DNA of 34,027 nucleotides, taken from Clostridia bacterium. Lineage in GTDB: Bacteria; Bacillota; Clostridia; Oscillospirales; QAMX01. The position numbers and the translations under genes are program-made. The stretch covers positions 1-34,027 of the forward strand of contig JAFRWU010000075.1 of NCBI GenBank assembly GCA_017441705.1. The letters are read 5' to 3'. The notes beneath the pieces are model-generated. The model had not been told where the DNA came from. It saw only the letters and a program-made list of their open reading frames with translations, and made no database searches. The stretch's first letter is position 1; each line of letters opens with the position of its first letter. Of the stretch, positions 1,590-19,053 are shown in pieces.

Positions 1590-1641
1590 GAAACCGCCTC
1601 CTTTCCGTGAGAGCTTATACCGCCCGGTTTGCCGCGCGGAA

Positions 1642-3429
1642 TCAGATCGCGCGGGTGTAATGCTTCAAATACCCCTTTTCCTCGTCCGAGAGGAAGGGGG
1701 AGACCTTTTCATAGACCATGGCGTGGTAGGCGTTCAGGCGTTCTTTGTCGCGGAAGGAGAGAAGAGAAGGCTCCACCGCGTCCAGGTCGATGGGCACGTA
1801 GGTCAGGTTTTCAAAACGCATGAACTGGCCGAATTCGTTCTTTTCGGCCTTGCGGCACAGAAGCTCGCTTTCGATGCGGATGCCGTACTCGTTTTCCAGA
1901 TAGTATCCCGGCTCGTCGGAGGTGATCATCCCCTCCTCCAGCACGGTTTCGGCCTTTCCGGGAACGCTCTTCCAGCGGAAGGCGTTCGGTCCTTCGTGGA
2001 CGCTCAGGATATGTCCGACGCCGTGGCCGGTGCCGTGCTTGTAATCGAGGCCCTCCTCCCACAGGGGGAGCCTTGCCAGAACGTCAAGATTGTATCCGCC
2101 GGCGCCGTGGAGGAACCGCGCCGAGGCGAGATTCAGGTGCCCGATCAGAACGAGGGTGAAATCCCGCCTCATCCGGCCGGTCACCGGTCCCAGGGCGAAG
2201 GTGCGGGTGATGTCGGTGGTCCCCTCCAGATAATGGGCGCCGGAATCCACCAGAAGGAGCCCCTCGGGCGCCAGAGACAGATTGCTTTCGGGCGTCGCGC
2301 CGTAGTGGATGATGGCGCCGTGAGGGCCGTAGCCCGCGATGGTGGAAAAGCTCAGCTCCAGGAAGCCCTCGTTCTCCCGCCGGAACGCCTCCAGACGGTC
2401 GGCGGCCGAGATCTCGGTCATCGGGATCTTTCCCACGTTGTTTTTCAGCCAGATCATGAACTTCGTCACGGCCACCGCGTCCTTCAGATGCGCGCGGCGG
2501 GTGTTCTCGATCTCGACCGGGTTTTTCACCGCTTTCAGAAGAGCGGTGGGATTCTTCCCGCGGATCAGCTTTGCGTCCTTCGGCAGGGAGGAGGCGATCC
2601 GGGAATTGACCGTGCCGGGATCGAGAAGGACCGGGATCCCGGCGGGCAGCGACGCGATATAGTCGTAAAAGCTTCCGTAAGGCCGGACGCCGACGCCCGC
2701 GGACGCAAGCGCGTCCCGGACGGCGGGAGAAAGCGCCTTTTCCTGCACGAACCAGAGACATTCGCTTTCGCTCAGGGCGAGATAGGAGAGGATCACCGGG
2801 GAATGGGCCACGTCGTCGCCGCGCAGATTGAGAAGCCAGGCGATGTCCGGAAGCGAGGTGAGAAGGTGCGCCTTTGCGCCCTTTTCCCGCATGATCCCGC
2901 GCAGCTCCCCGATTTTTTCGGCGGCGCTTTTCCCGGTGTATTTTTCCTCCAGCGCGAAGACGGGCCGGCAGGAAAGGGCGGGCCGGTCCTCCCAGATCAG
3001 ATCCGTCAGATCCTCGCCGGAGGCGATTCCGGCGCCTTTCGCATCGGCCAGAGAGACAAGGCTTTCGTAATACTCCAGGTTGATCACCCGGCCGTCGAAT
3101 CCCAGCACGCCGCCTTCGGAAAGATGATCCCGGAGGAATTCCGGAATGGTGGGCACGCCCTCTTCGCCGATCCGGTACAGGGTGAATTCGTGTCCCTTGA
3201 GCTGGTCCTCGGCCTGCAGGAAATAGCGTCCGTCGGTCCAGAGCCCGGCTTCGTCGGGGGTGACGACCGCGGTCCCGGCGGAGCCGGTGAAGCCGGTGAT
3301 ATACTCACGGGCTTTGAAATAATCGCCCACGTATTCCGATTCGTGAAAATCGGCGGTGGGGATCAGGTAACAGGTGATGCCGCGCTTTTTCATCTCGGCG
3401 CGCAGCTTTTGCAGTCTTTCGGCGTACAT
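1642..3429 (-). CDS. pepP: Xaa-Pro aminopeptidase, M24B family, long three-domain form
   Basis: This metallopeptidase removes the N-terminal residue from peptides whose second residue is proline. At 595 residues it is the long form related to eukaryotic XPNPEP1, with two N-terminal creatinase-like domains and a C-terminal pita-bread domain (from about 310). Expected metal ligands are visible: Asp395 (LLLVDSGA), Asp406 (TTDITRT), His469 (GTGHGVGH), Glu506 (DEPGYY) and Glu520 (IRIESE). There is no signal peptide, so it should be cytoplasmic and help recycle proline-containing peptides. It has its own promoter at 3482-3510 and is the first gene of a minus-strand run leading into the two-component genes. 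Symbol use follows family convention; it is not the shorter E. coli-type PepP. Confidence 0.95.
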   Translation of the reverse strand: MYAERLQKLRAEMKKRGITCYLIPTADFHESEYVGDYFKAREYITGFTGSAGTAVVTPDEAGLWTDGRYFLQAEDQLKGHEFTLYRIGEEGVPTIPEFLRDHLSEGGVLGFDGRVINLEYYESLVSLADAKGAGIASGEDLTDLIWEDRPALSCRPVFALEEKYTGKSAAEKIGELRGIMREKGAKAHLLTSLPDIAWLLNLRGDDVAHSPVILSYLALSESECLWFVQEKALSPAVRDALASAGVGVRPYGSFYDYIASLPAGIPVLLDPGTVNSRIASSLPKDAKLIRGKNPTALLKAVKNPVEIENTRRAHLKDAVAVTKFMIWLKNNVGKIPMTEISAADRLEAFRRENEGFLELSFSTIAGYGPHGAIIHYGATPESNLSLAPEGLLLVDSGAHYLEGTTDITRTFALGPVTGRMRRDFTLVLIGHLNLASARFLHGAGGYNLDVLARLPLWEEGLDYKHGTGHGVGHILSVHEGPNAFRWKSVPGKAETVLEEGMITSDEPGYYLENEYGIRIESELLCRKAEKNEFGQFMRFENLTYVPIDLDAVEPSLLSFRDKERLNAYHAMVYEKVSPFLSDEEKGYLKHYTRAI

Positions 3430-12807: not shown

Positions 12808-13611
12808 ATGACTTCCACGGCGGACATCCTGATCCTGCGGCCCTTCAACGCGGTTTTTCTCGTCACCTTCGCGGCCTTCGTTCTCCTTCTTGTGATCGCA
12901 AGTCTTCTGGTGCGCGGCAGGAGCGCCCGCGTCAAAAAGACGGTGATCGTCGCGGCGTGCGCCGTCACGCTGATCGGCTTTTTCATCTACAAATACTTCC
13001 TTTCGATCGACGCGGCGTACGATGCGATCACCGCCGACACAGGCGGCTTCAACTGGTGGGGGGAACTGCCGTTCCATCTTTGCAACGTCAACATGATCCT
13101 GATCCCGATCGCGGTCCTCACAAAAAAACGCCCGCTTCTCAGCTTCTGCTTTTTCGTGGGGCCTCTCGGCGCGACGCTGGCGCTTGTCATGCCGGGCAAC
13201 GGATTTGACGGCTATTCGATCCTGCTGCCGAGAATGATCGGCTATTTCGGGACCCATTTCATGATCGTGATCCTGGCGATCGCCATCGTGACTTTCGGTT
13301 TTTATAAGCCGCGCTTCCGCGACATCCCCATGACCGCGCTGACGCTGGCGGCGGTGGCTTTCGTCGCCTTCCTGATCTCGCTGCTTTTCCGGGTGACCGG
13401 TCTCAACGCCTTCGCGAATTATTTCTATACGATGGACCCCGAAGGGAACCCGGTGCTCGGCCTCTTCAAGAAGCTGATCCCGGTGCCGTATCTCTACCTT
13501 CTGCCCTCCATTCTTGTGATCGCGGCTTACGCAGCCCTGGTCACGCTGGGATTCTTCCTCGCGGACAGGATCCAGGGGCGTCTGCGGAATTGTAAAGAGA
13601 CTGAAGACTGA
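12808..13611 (+). CDS. YwaF/TMEM164-related integral membrane protein
   Basis: The 267-residue protein has about seven hydrophobic segments and matches the YwaF (TIGR02206) family through GELPFHLCNVNM, GYSILLPRMIGYFGTHF, NYFYTMDPEGNP and PYLYLLPS. The related human protein TMEM164 has been described as a phospholipid acyltransferase acting through a cysteine and histidine; the HLC pair here is in the equivalent region. Bacterial function is unproven. ATG 12808 follows AGAGGAG, five bases after the PAP2 stop. No terminator is obvious right after it; low-GC sequence with a possible new promoter follows. Confidence 0.85.
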   Translation: MTSTADILILRPFNAVFLVTFAAFVLLLVIASLLVRGRSARVKKTVIVAACAVTLIGFFIYKYFLSIDAAYDAITADTGGFNWWGELPFHLCNVNMILIPIAVLTKKRPLLSFCFFVGPLGATLALVMPGNGFDGYSILLPRMIGYFGTHFMIVILAIAIVTFGFYKPRFRDIPMTALTLAAVAFVAFLISLLFRVTGLNAFANYFYTMDPEGNPVLGLFKKLIPVPYLYLLPSILVIAAYAALVTLGFFLADRIQGRLRNCKETED

Positions 13612-13619
13612 GAACGGTG

Positions 13620-13646
13620 TTGACAGGAGAGCTTATGAGGTACAAT
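13620..13646 (+). promoter_or_regulatory. Possible promoter of a short transcript
   Basis: TTGACA (13620-13625) and TACAAT (13641-13646) are separated by 15 bases, shorter than usual. A GAAGGAA and an ATG at 13660 follow, but the 81-codon frame it opens has no recognisable content. A terminator-like hairpin at 13775-13819 would give a transcript of about 165 bases. It may instead be the left-end promoter of a decayed insertion sequence. In the gene-poor stretch 13612-14079 this is the only promoter-like signal seen. Confidence 0.35.
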
Positions 13647-13723
13647 AGAAGGAATCTCTATGGGTATTAACGGCTCCTTTCCTGGATGCGCAAGGGGAAT
13701 CCCGAATGTGTCCTCATTAATCG

Positions 13724-13740
13724 TGAAATATACCGAAAGT
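13724..13740 (+). repeat. Direct repeat, copy 1
   Basis: TGAAATATACCGAAAGT occurs here and again at 13992-14008, 268 bases apart, with GAAG following one base later in both. Both copies are followed by a hairpin (13775 and 14010). The repeats bracket the transposase remnant. Confidence 0.75.
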
Positions 13741-13774
13741 CGAAGGGATTGTAGTAAAAGCCCTGAAATAACAA

Positions 13775-13819
13775 GAGACCGAGACGGCAGAAAACAGCCG
13801 CCTCGGTTTCTCATTTTTT
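13775..13819 (+). terminator. Terminator-like hairpin with T run
   Basis: GAGACCGAGACGGC (13775-13788) pairs imperfectly with GCCGCCTCGGTTTCTC (13797-13812) around a short A-rich loop, and six T follow at 13814-13819. It would end a transcript from the promoter-like site at 13620. Confidence 0.65.
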
Positions 13820-13952
13820 GGCGTGGCCAAGCAGAACTATGGATTTCGGCAGTTCCTTCTGCGTGGGCAGAAGAAGGTTTACGACCGAGGTGCTTCTGCT
13901 GGTGATAACCTGCAACATAAACAAACTGCATGCCAAGAGTCAGCAAAATTGA
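13820..13952 (+). pseudogene. 3' remnant of a DDE transposase, frameshifted
   Basis: The frame reading KQNYGFRQFLLRGQKKV matches the C-terminal end of IS1182/IS5-type transposases, where a GxRxFLLRGxxKV segment is followed by a hydrophobic stretch and NINKLH. Here that continuation (TEVLLLVITCNINKLH) is found in the next frame, after an apparent one-base insertion near 13882. It ends at a TGA at 13950-13952. The rest of the gene is missing, so this is a dead fragment. The transposase family call rests on motif memory and could be off by subfamily. Confidence 0.6.
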
Positions 13953-13991
13953 ACCGGCACGCAGTTGTTCGAAAAAGATTCGGCTTAACCA

Positions 13992-14008
13992 TGAAATATA
14001 CCGAAAGT
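13992..14008 (+). repeat. Direct repeat, copy 2
   Basis: Same 17 bases as at 13724-13740. It lies 39 bases past the transposase remnant's stop and just before the hairpin at 14010-14045. It may mark the edge of the former element or be an older repeat used in the deletion. Confidence 0.75.
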
Positions 14009-14009
14009 A

Positions 14010-14045
14010 GAAGCGGGAAAGAATCGTTCTGTTCTTTCCCGCTTC
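14010..14045 (-). terminator. Inverted repeat downstream of the lipoprotein gene
   Basis: A perfect fourteen-base stem (GAAGCGGGAAAGAA with TTCTTTCCCGCTTC) and eight-base loop lie 35 bases past the minus-strand stop at 14080. The downstream T content is weak (TCTACTTTC). Probably the terminator of the lipoprotein gene. Confidence 0.55.
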
Positions 14046-14079
14046 GCAGCGACAGTGAATCACTGCGTGCCGTGTTTTG

Positions 14080-14625
14080 CTATTCGATGACGATCTTGTC
14101 CACTGAGCAGCAGGAAGTGAAGGAGGGCAGCGAAGATGCTCCGAACACACCGACATAGCTCCAGGTATCAAAAAGAATATCGCTTTTATTGCGAATCCAG
14201 CCGAGTATTACGTCGTCGCTCATGAGAAGATCACCCTCAATGGAATAGGAGATGTCGTTCTGGTACAGGTCTTTTCCGTAATAGGTGATTCTCGTCGCAT
14301 CAGAACGACCGACATCCTCCAGGAATTCACGGAGATGAATCCCGCCGCAGAGGAAGCTTGTCTGCATTGCTCCGGTGCCATTTTCACCGGGTTCTACGGT
14401 TTTCATCATGCTGCAGATGATCTTGGAAAGCTCATGTTCTTCGGCATCGGATCTCGAATAGGAGTCGACGGTGCCTCCTTCCACGGCAATAGTCCATGTG
14501 ACGGTATCCAGCGTGACGGCTGCGGCTTCCTCCGCTGCGATCTCATCCGGAGTCTTGCCGGAACAGCCTGAGAACAGAGATGTCAGAATAAGCATAACAG
14601 CGAGAAATGAAACAGTCTTCCTCAT
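14080..14625 (-). CDS. Small lipoprotein, possibly with a molybdopterin-oxidoreductase-like fold
   Basis: The 181-residue protein starts MRKTVSFLAV and has the lipobox LFSGC with Cys21 as the lipidated residue. The ATG at 14625 was preferred to an upstream in-frame start because AAAGGAG lies just before it. The mature part (GGIHLREFLEDVG, then YYGKDLYQNDISYSIEGDLL, then CSVDKIVIE) has the layout of small sulfite-oxidase-fold domains. No conserved cofactor cysteine can be confirmed, so this is tentative. Base composition is visibly less GC-rich than in neighbours, which suggests acquisition. It has its own promoter (14716-14743) and a downstream hairpin. Confidence 0.75.
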   Translation of the reverse strand: MRKTVSFLAVMLILTSLFSGCSGKTPDEIAAEEAAAVTLDTVTWTIAVEGGTVDSYSRSDAEEHELSKIICSMMKTVEPGENGTGAMQTSFLCGGIHLREFLEDVGRSDATRITYYGKDLYQNDISYSIEGDLLMSDDVILGWIRNKSDILFDTWSYVGVFGASSLPSFTSCCSVDKIVIE

Positions 14626-14715
14626 GAGAACTCCTTTCTTTATGTGTGGGATCATCGGACAAATTGTTGATTCTGACGTTGCAGAGGGAGACAGACGAAT
14701 CAGCCTCCTGCGTAT

Positions 14716-14743
14716 ATTATATGACATACATCGGGAAAAACAA
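14716..14743 (-). promoter_or_regulatory. Promoter of the small lipoprotein gene
   Basis: On the minus strand, TTGTTT (14738-14743), a 16-base spacer and TATAAT (14716-14721), about 90 bases before the ATG. Confidence 0.65.
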
Positions 14744-14772
14744 TGACAGAAATACGGCTAAAGATGACAAAT

Positions 14773-14958
14773 CTACAGATTTATAAGGGCGGGAGGTACT
14801 GAAGAGATCCTGCTCTTCCGGACAGATGACGGAGAACTCCCGGTAACGTTTTTGAAAGAACGCGAAAAGGAAGATGCGTCTGTGAAGCTGAAGTGTTCTG
14901 CGACTTCACTGACAGTTTTTCCGCCGGCGAGCATTTCCGCAGCCCGTTTCATCATCAG
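14773..14958 (-). pseudogene. C-terminal fragment of an AraC-family regulator
   Basis: Sixty-one codons ending at the TAG at 14773-14775 encode the second helix-turn-helix of an AraC regulator (MMKRAAEMLAGGKTVSEVAE, then FSFTDASSFSRSFKNVTG). The intact regulator encoded at 16707-17540 has the matching end MMKRAAELLTGGKSVGEAAE, so this is a diverged paralogue. Homology stops abruptly at 14959, where a MATE gene fragment begins. It has no start codon, N-terminal domain or promoter. Confidence 0.8.
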
Positions 14959-15068
14959 GCTCCGGCGCGGTGCTTCTGAACATTCTTCTGAACGCGGTCC
15001 TGATCTTCGGCCTTCTCGGGATCCCGGCCATGAGCTTCCGAGGCGCGGCGCTGGCGACGACGATCGCG
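14959..15068 (+). pseudogene. 110-base duplicated fragment of the MATE transporter gene
   Basis: By eye this stretch matches 18188-18297 at all but one of 110 positions, with the mismatch in CGAGGC versus CGGGGC. It encodes the segment LLNILLNAVLIFGLLGIPAM of the transporter. At its left edge, TTCATCAT-AGGCTCCGG resembles both the AraC sequence and the MATE sequence (TTCATCAGCTCCGG), which suggests joining by short homology. At its right edge similarity ends within GATCGCG. Confidence 0.85.
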
Positions 15069-15209
15069 CCGGGATCGATCCCCAATCGCTTGCCCGGGCT
15101 TCAAAACGTGTATCTGGCCGGTCAGTGGCTCCGCATGCCCGGCGGACTGCCGATGGCGGCCGCCAGCGGGCGCGACGCGGCGCTTGCCGTCGCGAAAGCG
15201 GCCGGATAA
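15069..15209 (+). pseudogene. C-terminal fragment of a phytoene-desaturase-like FAD oxidoreductase
   Basis: The frame reads PNRLPGLQNVYLAGQWLRMP and continues GGLPMAAASGRDAA before a TAA at 15207. This is the FAD-binding C-terminal signature of the CrtI/phytoene desaturase-type oxidoreductases (NVYLAGQW..GGLP.A..SGR). It is in frame with the preceding MATE fragment, giving a 79-codon chimeric frame from a GTG at 14970 that has no ribosome binding site. No upstream part of this enzyme is in the window. Confidence 0.75.
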
Positions 15210-15231
15210 GCTTTCCGGACCGTATCCAGAG

Positions 15232-15272
15232 AAAAACGCGGAGCCGGTTGATCTCGATCAACCGGCTCCGCG
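15232..15272 (-). terminator. Very strong terminator, minus strand
   Basis: A perfect 17-base stem (15237-15253 with 15256-15272) with a two-base loop is followed on the minus strand by five T. It implies a minus-strand transcript ending here, either read-through from the MDR dehydrogenase gene or a short gene between them. Confidence 0.85.
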
Positions 15273-15446
15273 GAGCTTACTGCGCGAAAGATCCCCCGAT
15301 GATGAACCTGGTCGCCGAGCTGCAGCAGGTGAATTCGCTCGGCTTGGCGCTGCCGCACACGCCGGCGTCGGGGTGCCTGTGCAGACGGTGAAGAGTGCAA
15401 AGAGCGTCGCAAGGAGAAACAGACAGGCGAATACGGATCTGCACAC
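15258..15446 (-). CDS. Possible small secreted peptide gene, frame uncertain
   Basis: From a GTG at 15446 the minus strand encodes a signal-peptide-like segment (CRSVFACLFLLATLFALFTV, then TPTPACAAA). This frame stops at 15258 inside the terminator stem, which is unusual. A neighbouring frame ends at a TAA at 15277-15279, four bases before the stem, and encodes a cysteine-containing tail (VCGSAKPSEFTCCSS, ending GGSFAQ). A one-base frameshift would join signal and tail into a short secreted peptide. No clear ribosome binding site is seen. It could equally be a decayed 3' region. Confidence 0.25.
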   Translation of the reverse strand: MCRSVFACLFLLATLFALFTVCTGTPTPACAAAPSRANSPAAARRPGSSSGDLSRSKLRGAG

Positions 15447-15477
15447 GGAATTCCGTTCTTTCTTGGTGCGAAGCGCT

Positions 15478-16560
15478 TTACAGGAAGCGGACCCCCATTT
15501 TGACGCTTTTTTCGGGATGCCGGTCCACAACGTCCAGGTAGGTTTCGGCGGCGTCCTGAAAACTGACGACCGGATCGAAAAGCTTTTCGCAGGAAAGCTT
15601 TCCGGAAGAGAGCAGGCGCCAGCATTCCCGGTTGATGCGTTCCCAGTTCCAGCGGGGGTAGTCCGGATTGGGCTCCGAGCAGGCGCGGGAAAAGAAGATC
15701 GTGGCGTTGTTCATATGCGCTTCGAGCCCGAGGTCGAAAGCGCCGCGGCAGGGCTGGAACCAACCGACGACGGCGATCCGCGCGCCGTAGGCAGCCGCGC
15801 GCAGAGCGGTCTGCAGCCCCGGGTAGGAGCCGCTGGTTTCGATCACGGCGTCGGCGCCCCGGTTGGCGGAAAGGCGCTTGACGGCAAGCCCCACATCTTC
15901 GGTCAGGGGATCGAAGGCGTAGTCGGCGCCGTTTTCCAGGGCGATCCTGCGTCTGCGCTCGATGGGATCGGAGACGATGACCATCCCCGCGCCCTGGAGC
16001 CGCGCAAGCTCGGCCGCCAGCAGTCCCACCGCGCCGAGCCCGCTGATCAGACAGACGTCGCCGAGGCGGACGTGCGCGTCCCGCACGCCGCTCATGGCGA
16101 ACTGGCACGGGTCGTAGGAGAGGGCCGCCTGCCAGGGCATCTCCTCCGGCACGTGAAGAACGTCGACGCAGAAGCCGAGACCCGGCTCGCTCCTTTTATC
16201 CACGGGGACGGTCTGGGTCTCCCGCAGGCAGCCGTAGCCCGCGACGCGGTCGCCGACGCGGAAGGAGGCGACCGCGGATCCGGTTTCGGTCACGCGTCCC
16301 ACCCACATATTGCCGGGACGGAAAGCGCCGGGGACCGCTTCTTCGCCCCCGTTCCGTGGTTTTTCCATGAAGCACTTGGTCCCGGCGTCGAAATCGCGCG
16401 CCGGGGCGTCGGGATCGGACCGCCATCCGTGAAGCTCGGAACCGTGCTTCGGCGCGGCGTAATCCACGCGGACGCGGATCTCGTCGGAAGCGAGCGGCTT
16501 TTCCTCATAGGAAGCGTAGGAAAGCTCGTGCGGCGTATAGGAAAGAATCTCTTTCGGCAT
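15478..16560 (-). CDS. MDR-superfamily dehydrogenase lacking the usual zinc ligands
   Basis: The 360-residue protein has the medium-chain dehydrogenase layout: a GroES-like N-terminal domain and a Rossmann domain with GLGAVG at 174-179 and Asp198, which favours NAD. In the positions where zinc alcohol dehydrogenases have catalytic Cys and the GHE motif, it has KHGSELHG and PGNMWVG, so catalytic zinc is unlikely. The structural cysteine cluster is also absent. It may oxidise or reduce a sugar, polyol or related alcohol. It lies downstream of the AraC regulator on the same strand but has its own promoter at 16650-16677; AGGGGG precedes the ATG. Confidence 0.85.
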   Translation of the reverse strand: MPKEILSYTPHELSYASYEEKPLASDEIRVRVDYAAPKHGSELHGWRSDPDAPARDFDAGTKCFMEKPRNGGEEAVPGAFRPGNMWVGRVTETGSAVASFRVGDRVAGYGCLRETQTVPVDKRSEPGLGFCVDVLHVPEEMPWQAALSYDPCQFAMSGVRDAHVRLGDVCLISGLGAVGLLAAELARLQGAGMVIVSDPIERRRRIALENGADYAFDPLTEDVGLAVKRLSANRGADAVIETSGSYPGLQTALRAAAYGARIAVVGWFQPCRGAFDLGLEAHMNNATIFFSRACSEPNPDYPRWNWERINRECWRLLSSGKLSCEKLFDPVVSFQDAAETYLDVVDRHPEKSVKMGVRFL

Positions 16561-16649
16561 CAGAAAGCCCCCTTGTCCTGTGCTTGTCCGGCAAAACCGC
16601 AGCTTTGCTTCACAGACGCGCGATCCCTCCGGTTTTTTTCTTCTATTCT

Positions 16650-16677
16650 ATTATAAATCCGACGCGGAGAAAAGCAA
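16650..16677 (-). promoter_or_regulatory. Promoter of the MDR dehydrogenase gene
   Basis: On the minus strand, TTGCTT (16672-16677), a 16-base spacer and TATAAT (16650-16655), about 90 bases upstream of the ATG and just past the AraC stop codon. Confidence 0.7.
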
Positions 16678-16706
16678 TGACACGTTTACCGCAGGATTTG
16701 ACAGAT

Positions 16707-17540
16707 TTACAGATGGATCAGGGCGGACGGCGAGGAACCGCTATCGCCCTTCCGGACGGCGGAGGGCGGGACGCCCATGACCGATTTGAAGGAGCGGGAA
16801 AAGGATGACGCGTCGCCGAACCCGAAGAGCTCCGCGGCCTCTCCGACGCTTTTCCCGCCGGTCAGCAACTCTGCGGCCCTTTTCATCATAAGGCTCCGGT
16901 GCAGCTTCATGGGGGAAACGCCGAAGAGAGAAGAGAAACGGTTGGAAAGGTAGGTGGGATGCAGATTGTGCCGCCGGGCGAGTGACTTGAGGTCGTATGG
17001 GGCTTCGTCGTTTGCGGTCACGTCTTCCAGAACCTTCCAAAAGACCTCCGGCACGTTTTCGCGCGCGCCGGCGCCTGCCGGGGTCATATCGTCCAGAAGA
17101 TATCCCAGGACCTCCAGCATGGAAGCCAGACGGTAAAGCGTCGTGCCGATGGAATCGGAAAGACGCATGGAATCGCTGTACTGACGGAAACGCGCTTCGA
17201 ATTCCCCGGCGTCGCCGACCGTATGTACGACGGGCAGATGGAAAAGGCGCAGAAGGTCGACCGTGTCGTAAGCCTTGTAATCGAAATGCCACCACCAGAA
17301 TACGCTTTCCTCTTCCCGCACCATGATATGATCGTGCCGGAGGAGGGGAGGGATCATGATCACGCTGTGGGGACACAGGTCTATCTCCCGGTCGGGCAGG
17401 CGCAGCACGGCGTGCCCTTCGGAGAGATAGGACATCACGTAAAAGGGAAAGCTGCGGCCGATGGACGACATGCTCCGCCTGCGGTCGATGCCGTAATCGT
17501 AGATGTGGATCGACCCCTTCGACATCAGATCCTCAAGCAT
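16707..17540 (-). CDS. AraC-family transcriptional regulator
   Basis: The 277-residue protein has an N-terminal cupin-like sensing domain (HSVIMIPPLLRHDHIM, then VFWWWHFDYK). The C-terminal AraC DNA-binding domain has two helix-turn-helix motifs (YDLKSLARRHNLHPTYLSNR, and GEAAELFGFGDASSFSRSFK). The ATG at 17540 is preferred over an upstream in-frame ATG because AAGGAGG lies eight bases before it. It is divergent from the MATE exporter gene and upstream of the MDR dehydrogenase gene, and probably controls one or both in response to a small molecule such as a sugar. A decayed paralogue of its C-terminus is at 14773-14958. Confidence 0.92.
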   Translation of the reverse strand: MLEDLMSKGSIHIYDYGIDRRRSMSSIGRSFPFYVMSYLSEGHAVLRLPDREIDLCPHSVIMIPPLLRHDHIMVREEESVFWWWHFDYKAYDTVDLLRLFHLPVVHTVGDAGEFEARFRQYSDSMRLSDSIGTTLYRLASMLEVLGYLLDDMTPAGAGARENVPEVFWKVLEDVTANDEAPYDLKSLARRHNLHPTYLSNRFSSLFGVSPMKLHRSLMMKRAAELLTGGKSVGEAAELFGFGDASSFSRSFKSVMGVPPSAVRKGDSGSSPSALIHL

Positions 17541-17611
17541 AAGGCGGCCTCCTTTCGCGCCGTATCCTGTCTGCGGATTTGCGGGAAACGGCATAGGTCT
17601 GCTCAAATCCT

Positions 17612-17641
17612 ATCCTATCATATTGCAAAGCGTTTCGTCAA
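17612..17641 (-). promoter_or_regulatory. Possible promoter of the AraC gene
   Basis: On the minus strand, TTGACG (17636-17641), an 18-base spacer and TAGGAT (17612-17617). It overlaps the divergent MATE promoter, so the two could compete for RNA polymerase. Confidence 0.5.
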
Positions 17642-17651
17642 CAGGTATAAT
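17623..17651 (+). promoter_or_regulatory. Promoter of the MATE transporter gene
   Basis: TTGCAA (17623-17628), a 17-base spacer and TATAAT (17646-17651), 37 bases before the ATG. Confidence 0.85.
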
Positions 17652-17688
17652 AGACGCAGTAAACCCGGGAGGAGTCGGTGTTATCCCC

Positions 17689-19053
17689 ATGCAGACGGCG
17701 ATAGACAACAAAACGTTTTACAAAAAGCTCTGGAAGCTCGCGCTGCCCATTTCCTTCCAGAGCCTGATGCTGGCGGCCGTGGCCGCGGGCGACGCCCTGA
17801 TGCTCGGCCGGGTGGCGCAGGAAGAAATGACGGCGGTGTCGCTGGCGACCCAGATCCAGTTCGTGCAGAACATGTTCCTGAGCGCCATCGCCACGGCGGG
17901 CTCCATTCTGGGCGCGCAGTATTTCGGGAAAGGCGCGAAGAAGACGATCTCCGAGATCTTCAATCTGATCCTGTTCCTTTCGGGGATCGTGTCGATCCTG
18001 TTTTTCGCCGCCTGCGAGCTGATCCCGGAATGGCTGATGCTGGCCTTTACCCACGACGGCGTCCTGATCGGGATCGGCGCGGAGTATCTCCGGATCGCGG
18101 GCTGGTCCTATCTCCTGACCGGCGTTTCCCAGTGCTATCTGACCGTGATGAAGGTCACCGATCACGTGCGCCAGAGCGTCTTCATCAGCTCCGGCGCGGT
18201 GCTTCTGAACATTCTTCTGAACGCGGTCCTGATCTTCGGCCTTCTCGGGATCCCGGCCATGAGCTTCCGGGGCGCGGCGCTGGCGACGACGATCGCGCGG
18301 GCGGTCGAGCTTATCCTGTCGGTTGCGCTTTCGGCGGGGAAAAGGCACGTCAGGCCGGATTTCCTGCGCTTTTTCCGCTGGCGGCGGGACCTTTTCCTCG
18401 ATTTCCAGAAGCAGTGTCTGCCGCTTCTCGGCGCGTTCCTCCTCTGGGGCGTGGGCTTTACCTCCTACACGGCGGTCATAGGCCATATGGGCAGCGACGC
18501 GGCGGCGGCCAATTCGGTCTCTTCGGTGGTGCGCGATCTGATCTGCTGCGCCTGCAACGGGATCGGAAGCGCCGCGGCGATCATGGTGGGCAACGAGCTC
18601 GGCGCGGGTCGCCTGGAGATTGGGAAAGCCTACGGGATCAAACTCAAGAACATCTCCTGGGTGATCGGCTTTCTTTCCACCGCGGTCATCCTGGCCCTGA
18701 CGCCGCTGACGGTGCGGATGGTGATCCTGACCGACGAGGCGCGGAGCTATCTCACCGGCATGATGGTCATCATGTCGTTTTACATGATCGGACGATGCGT
18801 CAACACCATCACCATCAACGGGGTCCTGGACGGCGGAGGCGACACGGTTTTCGATATGTACAGCCTGGCGGTGGCCATGTGGGGCCTGGCGGTGCCTCTC
18901 GCGATCCTCGGCGCCTTCGTGTTTCACTGGCCGGTATTTGCCGTCTATGCCTGCACCTGCCTTGACGAGGTGGGGAAGATCCCCTGGGTCATGATCCGCT
19001 TCCGGAAATACAAGTGGGTCAAGGACCTGACGCGGGCGGAGCCGGGAGAATGA
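17689..19053 (+). CDS. MATE-family multidrug/metabolite exporter
   Basis: The 454-residue protein has twelve hydrophobic segments and the usual MATE layout (KLALPISFQSLML at the start; the segment QIQFVQNMFLSAIATAGSIL; NGVLDGGGDTVF in the C-terminal half). MATE proteins export cationic drugs or metabolites using proton or sodium gradients. The ATG at 17689 gives a normal family length; GGGAGGAG is about 14 bases upstream, slightly far. The frame is open upstream, but those codons lie before the promoter. Divergent from the AraC gene. A 110-base piece of this gene (18188-18297) is duplicated at 14959-15068. Confidence 0.92.
   Translation: MQTAIDNKTFYKKLWKLALPISFQSLMLAAVAAGDALMLGRVAQEEMTAVSLATQIQFVQNMFLSAIATAGSILGAQYFGKGAKKTISEIFNLILFLSGIVSILFFAACELIPEWLMLAFTHDGVLIGIGAEYLRIAGWSYLLTGVSQCYLTVMKVTDHVRQSVFISSGAVLLNILLNAVLIFGLLGIPAMSFRGAALATTIARAVELILSVALSAGKRHVRPDFLRFFRWRRDLFLDFQKQCLPLLGAFLLWGVGFTSYTAVIGHMGSDAAAANSVSSVVRDLICCACNGIGSAAAIMVGNELGAGRLEIGKAYGIKLKNISWVIGFLSTAVILALTPLTVRMVILTDEARSYLTGMMVIMSFYMIGRCVNTITINGVLDGGGDTVFDMYSLAVAMWGLAVPLAILGAFVFHWPVFAVYACTCLDEVGKIPWVMIRFRKYKWVKDLTRAEPGE

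Follow-up and report, generated by a model that had tools for sequence, protein, structure and literature searches.

The interval at positions 14773-15209 of the window, a stretch of 34,027 bp analysed at its full length, is very probably a non-functional rearrangement scar. Its sequence is best read as a direct duplication with deletion between the repeats, which could have arisen in two steps or in one template-switching event. The window is one whole contig (C15) of a 2.8-Mb draft genome in 120 contigs (98% complete), apparently metagenome-derived, and the source organism is uncultured.

Three pieces lie in the interval, as the initial annotation had described: the C-terminal end of an AraC-family regulator gene (AraC1), a 110-base copy of part of a MATE transporter gene and the tail of a CrtI-like oxidoreductase gene, in that order (Table 1). 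That annotation missed the wreck of a lipoprotein gene (lipo2) just downstream and an intact, low-GC paralogous lipoprotein gene (lipo1) just upstream. Between the TMEM164 and dehydrogenase genes, the window runs through low-GC DNA, lipo1, the AraC1 remnant, the MATE piece, the CrtI tail, a hairpin and lipo2. An Rfam search of the window returned no structured RNA match.

Table 1. Features of the scar and its surroundings, in window coordinates.
Feature	Position	Strand	Remarks
Low-GC stretch	13612..14958	.	GC ~0.47-0.53; ends at the AraC1/MATE joint; probably what remains of a second lipoprotein-AraC copy
lipo1, small lipoprotein-like gene, intact	14083..14625	-	third-position GC 0.59
AraC1 remnant: C-terminal ~64 codons and downstream DNA	14715..14968	-	homologous to 16649-16902
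110-base MATE copy	14959..15068	+	109/110 against 18188-18297; first bases GCTCCGG overlap AraC1, last four GCGC overlap CrtI
CrtI-like oxidoreductase, last 46 codons and stop	15069..15209	+	homology to the G002 gene
Inverted repeat, terminator-like, after CrtI	15237..15272	.	similar hairpin sequence aligns in G002
lipo2 remnant	15290..15440	-	signal peptide and C-terminus out of frame with each other; orthologous to the lipoprotein at the G002 locus
Zinc-binding dehydrogenase, intact	15478..16560	-	
AraC2, AraC-family regulator, intact	16707..17606	-	AraC1 paralogue
MATE transporter, intact	17689..19053	+	source of the copy is its 18188-18297

An intact AraC/MATE/oxidoreductase locus is present in one congener, G002 (MAG RUG11797, record CACYBP010000390), where a single 7.5-kb contig carries genes in the order PAP2, TMEM164-like, CrtI-like, small lipoprotein, zinc dehydrogenase, AraC and MATE. 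Both ends of this block are kept in the window at 72-75% DNA identity. The part from CrtI through lipoprotein, dehydrogenase and AraC to MATE is intact in the congener and damaged here; AraC1 and lipo1, which precede CrtI in the window, are absent from G002. Among 80 MATE relatives whose neighbourhoods were checked on their genome contigs, only RUG11797 has the locus. Many Clostridia MAGs encode relatives of this MATE protein (70-77% identity) without AraC, dehydrogenase or oxidoreductase neighbours; the transporter is suggested to move independently of the AraC/dehydrogenase/oxidoreductase locus.

The intact CrtI-like gene of G002 (1610-3067) matches the Pfam families NAD_binding_8 and Amino_oxidase, and the tail in the window (15069-15206) has 71% protein identity to its C-terminus, which bears out the earlier description of this piece as the end of a phytoene-desaturase-like enzyme. 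Approximately the first 440 codons are missing from the window, and the 46 that survive do not include the N-terminal FAD/NAD-binding motif. A search of 13540-14100 gave no convincing remnant of the CrtI N-terminus, and the tail is the sole CrtI-like match in the genome. Because no other part was found there, the CrtI-like gene appears to have been lost from this lineage.

The MATE copy and its source form a direct repeat with a spacing of 3,229 bp. Their single mismatch (A for G at 15041) is synonymous, and the longest exact identity between them is ~82 bp. A match of this length cannot be due to chance (a rough estimate of chance origin is 3e-53), and elsewhere in the 2.8-Mb genome the piece matches only the intact MATE gene. 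Nor is the near-identity mere conservation, since the orthologous stretch of G002 is only 81% identical. Near-identity starts and stops at the two joints, and no MATE homology beyond short overlaps was found on either side of the copy. Third-position GC of the piece is 0.86. The MATE remnant, 37 of 454 codons, gives no Pfam match to the MatE domain.

On the minus strand, the AraC1 piece matches HTH_18 (E 5.8e-11) over profile positions 29-79 of 80 only; the N-terminal part is gone, and the piece thus lacks a complete DNA-binding domain with both helix-turn-helix motifs. Its DNA is 69% identical to that of AraC2 (16669-16902), in agreement with the earlier view that it is a diverged paralogue of the regulator next to the complete MATE gene. 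The strand originally given for this fragment is correct, but the extent (14773-14958) was slightly too short, as homology continues past the gene end to ~14715, matching the DNA that separates AraC2 from the dehydrogenase gene. Third-position GC is 0.55 in AraC1 versus 0.82 in the same codons of AraC2, and the two have residues and a gap in common against the AraC of G002. Across 394 genomes of the order (E 1e-9), the only close relative of AraC1 was AraC2 of the same genome, and no intact relative was found elsewhere. Most of the differences that separate AraC1 and the CrtI tail from their relatives fall on the third base of a codon (33 of 61 for AraC1, 27 of 44 for the CrtI tail), the pattern to be expected if both had been working genes for most of the time of divergence.

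The AraC and MATE sequences overlap by 7 bp (GCTCCGG) where they meet on the left; at the right joint, the MATE and CrtI sequences overlap by ~4 bp (GCGC), with the lost CrtI sequence judged from G002. For random pairs of break points in the window, at least seven shared bases are expected with p ~9e-4 and at least four with p 0.02, and the short-homology join that had been suspected at the left joint is upheld. Both joints sit in a few common bases, not in long homology. No mobile element was matched at the joints among the neighbouring genes searched, and the nearby inverted repeats are terminator-like hairpins or weak. A search for the left joint in viral contigs found none.

The right joint connects MATE position 18297 to CrtI position 15069, both on the plus strand, so that the left portion of the downstream gene comes ahead of the right portion of the upstream one in a shared orientation (gene order being taken from G002 and the window). 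This is the arrangement that a head-to-tail duplication of 15069-18297 produces at its junction; given such a duplication, the repeat spacing of 3,229 bp would be the length of the unit. The AraC1/MATE joint, in turn, we infer to be a deletion across the seven common bases, reaching into the first duplicate.

Two routes could have produced this arrangement. In the first, the stretch from inside CrtI to inside MATE would have been duplicated head to tail, creating the MATE/CrtI joint; a deletion would then have run from inside the neighbouring, diverged AraC1 into the first MATE copy by way of GCTCCGG. With it would have gone the greater part of AraC1, almost the whole of CrtI and the first duplicate except for 110 bases. 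To the same effect, one event of replication repair may have switched template twice, from AraC1 to MATE and on to CrtI, with the 110 MATE bases copied into the deletion. Both routes would leave the same product, and in either case the event would be recent relative to the divergence of AraC1 and AraC2. The ancestral arrangement is reconstructed from a single congener, G002, with no observed intermediate.

We entertained the possibility that the joints are assembly errors and absent from the organism itself. The sequence belongs to a draft in many contigs, apparently metagenomic, and the piece repeats sequence only 3.2 kb away. However, a swap at the repeat would have disrupted the MATE gene, and that gene is whole and collinear with its G002 counterpart. 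In addition, the exact identity is short, the copy carries a base of its own, and the joints themselves have only 7 and 4 bp in common. On this sequence evidence, repeat-driven misassembly is unlikely and the reading as a whole improbable.

The initial annotation had proposed a second AraC/MATE pair, later patched by gene conversion: AraC1 would have had its own MATE gene, deletions would have left 110 bases of it, and conversion from the intact MATE gene would have made the piece near-identical. AraC1 is indeed a real, diverged paralogue of the MATE-adjacent regulator, and the presence of lipo1 beside it suggests that part of the locus once existed twice. A tract of near-identity next to diverged paralogous sequence also resembles conversion between paralogues. 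Unlike a conversion tract, however, which would lie inside longer aligned homology, this one ends at structural joints, as duplication predicts and conversion does not, and only short overlaps flank it; the AraC1 sequence that it touches is far more diverged from its paralogue. No further MATE relative of suitable age is present in the genome, the next best being 30% identical. Conversion would add a step without adding explanation, given that copying during the rearrangement suffices, and would make the tandem-duplication order of the MATE/CrtI joint a coincidence. We therefore rejected conversion of an old second MATE gene, which we consider very improbable: the tract coincides with the joints and a MATE relative of that age is missing from the genome. 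Of the proposed ancestral pair, a second lipoprotein-AraC copy (AraC1 and lipo1) does seem to have existed, but the membership of a MATE gene in it is not supported.

It is barely conceivable that the scar encodes an expressed, functional protein. The 79-codon chimeric frame noted earlier is present (GTG at 14970, stop ending at 15209), it is open, and the MATE-to-oxidoreductase join on the plus strand is in frame; a 162-codon minus-strand frame that ends in the AraC helix-turn-helix is open as well. Yet an in-frame join is expected by chance one time in three, a scan for sigma-70-like promoters found none, the AraC domain lacks its first part, and none of the pieces holds a complete domain. 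It is likewise scarcely credible that the rearrangement gave rise to a new small membrane protein, with the hypothetical in-frame chimera being expressed and retained.

The flanks record further changes. All that is left of lipo2 is its signal peptide and its C-terminus; this pseudogene is the product of a large deletion within the gene, distinct from the main scar. By contrast with three other lipoproteins of the genome (third-position GC 0.76-0.82), lipo1 has a value of 0.59. In a tree, lipo1 groups with the lipoprotein of the G002 locus and with lipoproteins of three other congeners at moderate support (93/92), the inner branching being without resolution. Members of this lipoprotein-like family (~180 aa) occur in all five genomes of the genus with 6-11 matches each, sometimes in tandem (four on contig C46 of G004). 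The family has no Pfam or NCBIfam match and was found in 0 of 16 other genomes of the taxonomic family that were searched. Since GC drops to ~0.48-0.50 in 13612-14958 relative to its surroundings (~0.6), the sequence suggests imported DNA that ends at the AraC1 joint. AraC1 and lipo1 are probably, to judge from their composition and relationships, what is left of a second copy of the lipoprotein-AraC part, lower in GC and perhaps received from a relative. The low-GC DNA also contains a 29-base direct repeat (13717-13745 and 13985-14013, 26/29 identical, 268 bases apart); its 17-base core was found nowhere else in the genus.

The scar resembles complex rearrangements joined by microhomology in Escherichia coli, for which template-switch or MMBIR models have been proposed. 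Junctions in E. coli amplification isolates show 3-30 bp of microhomology (PMC3161906), and both joints of the scar carry short microhomology. In such non-recurrent events, nearby sequence is commonly inserted at novel junctions (PMC3161906); the scar likewise holds a piece templated from DNA 3.2 kb away (109/110) at a novel junction. One class of E. coli junctions, direct duplication with deletion between the repeats, was read as two direct template switches (PMC3161906), and the scar has this form. Unlike those isolates, it is read from one natural genome, with no amplification and no parental strain. The order and direction of the MATE/CrtI joint, with the implied 3,229-bp unit, equally resemble a tandem duplication followed by an independent deletion; unlike in a full tandem duplication, only 110 bases of the first unit are left, and the unit is reconstructed.

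The scar lies in a gene block that is decaying; it is a clear but ordinary record of bacterial gene loss and reshuffling and involves no new mechanism. As a well-preserved natural case of direct duplication with deletion between repeats, it can be followed base by base, since both the source gene and the congener's intact locus are at hand, and it shows how an oxidoreductase gene would have disappeared from one uncultured bacterium and a short templated insertion would have been acquired.
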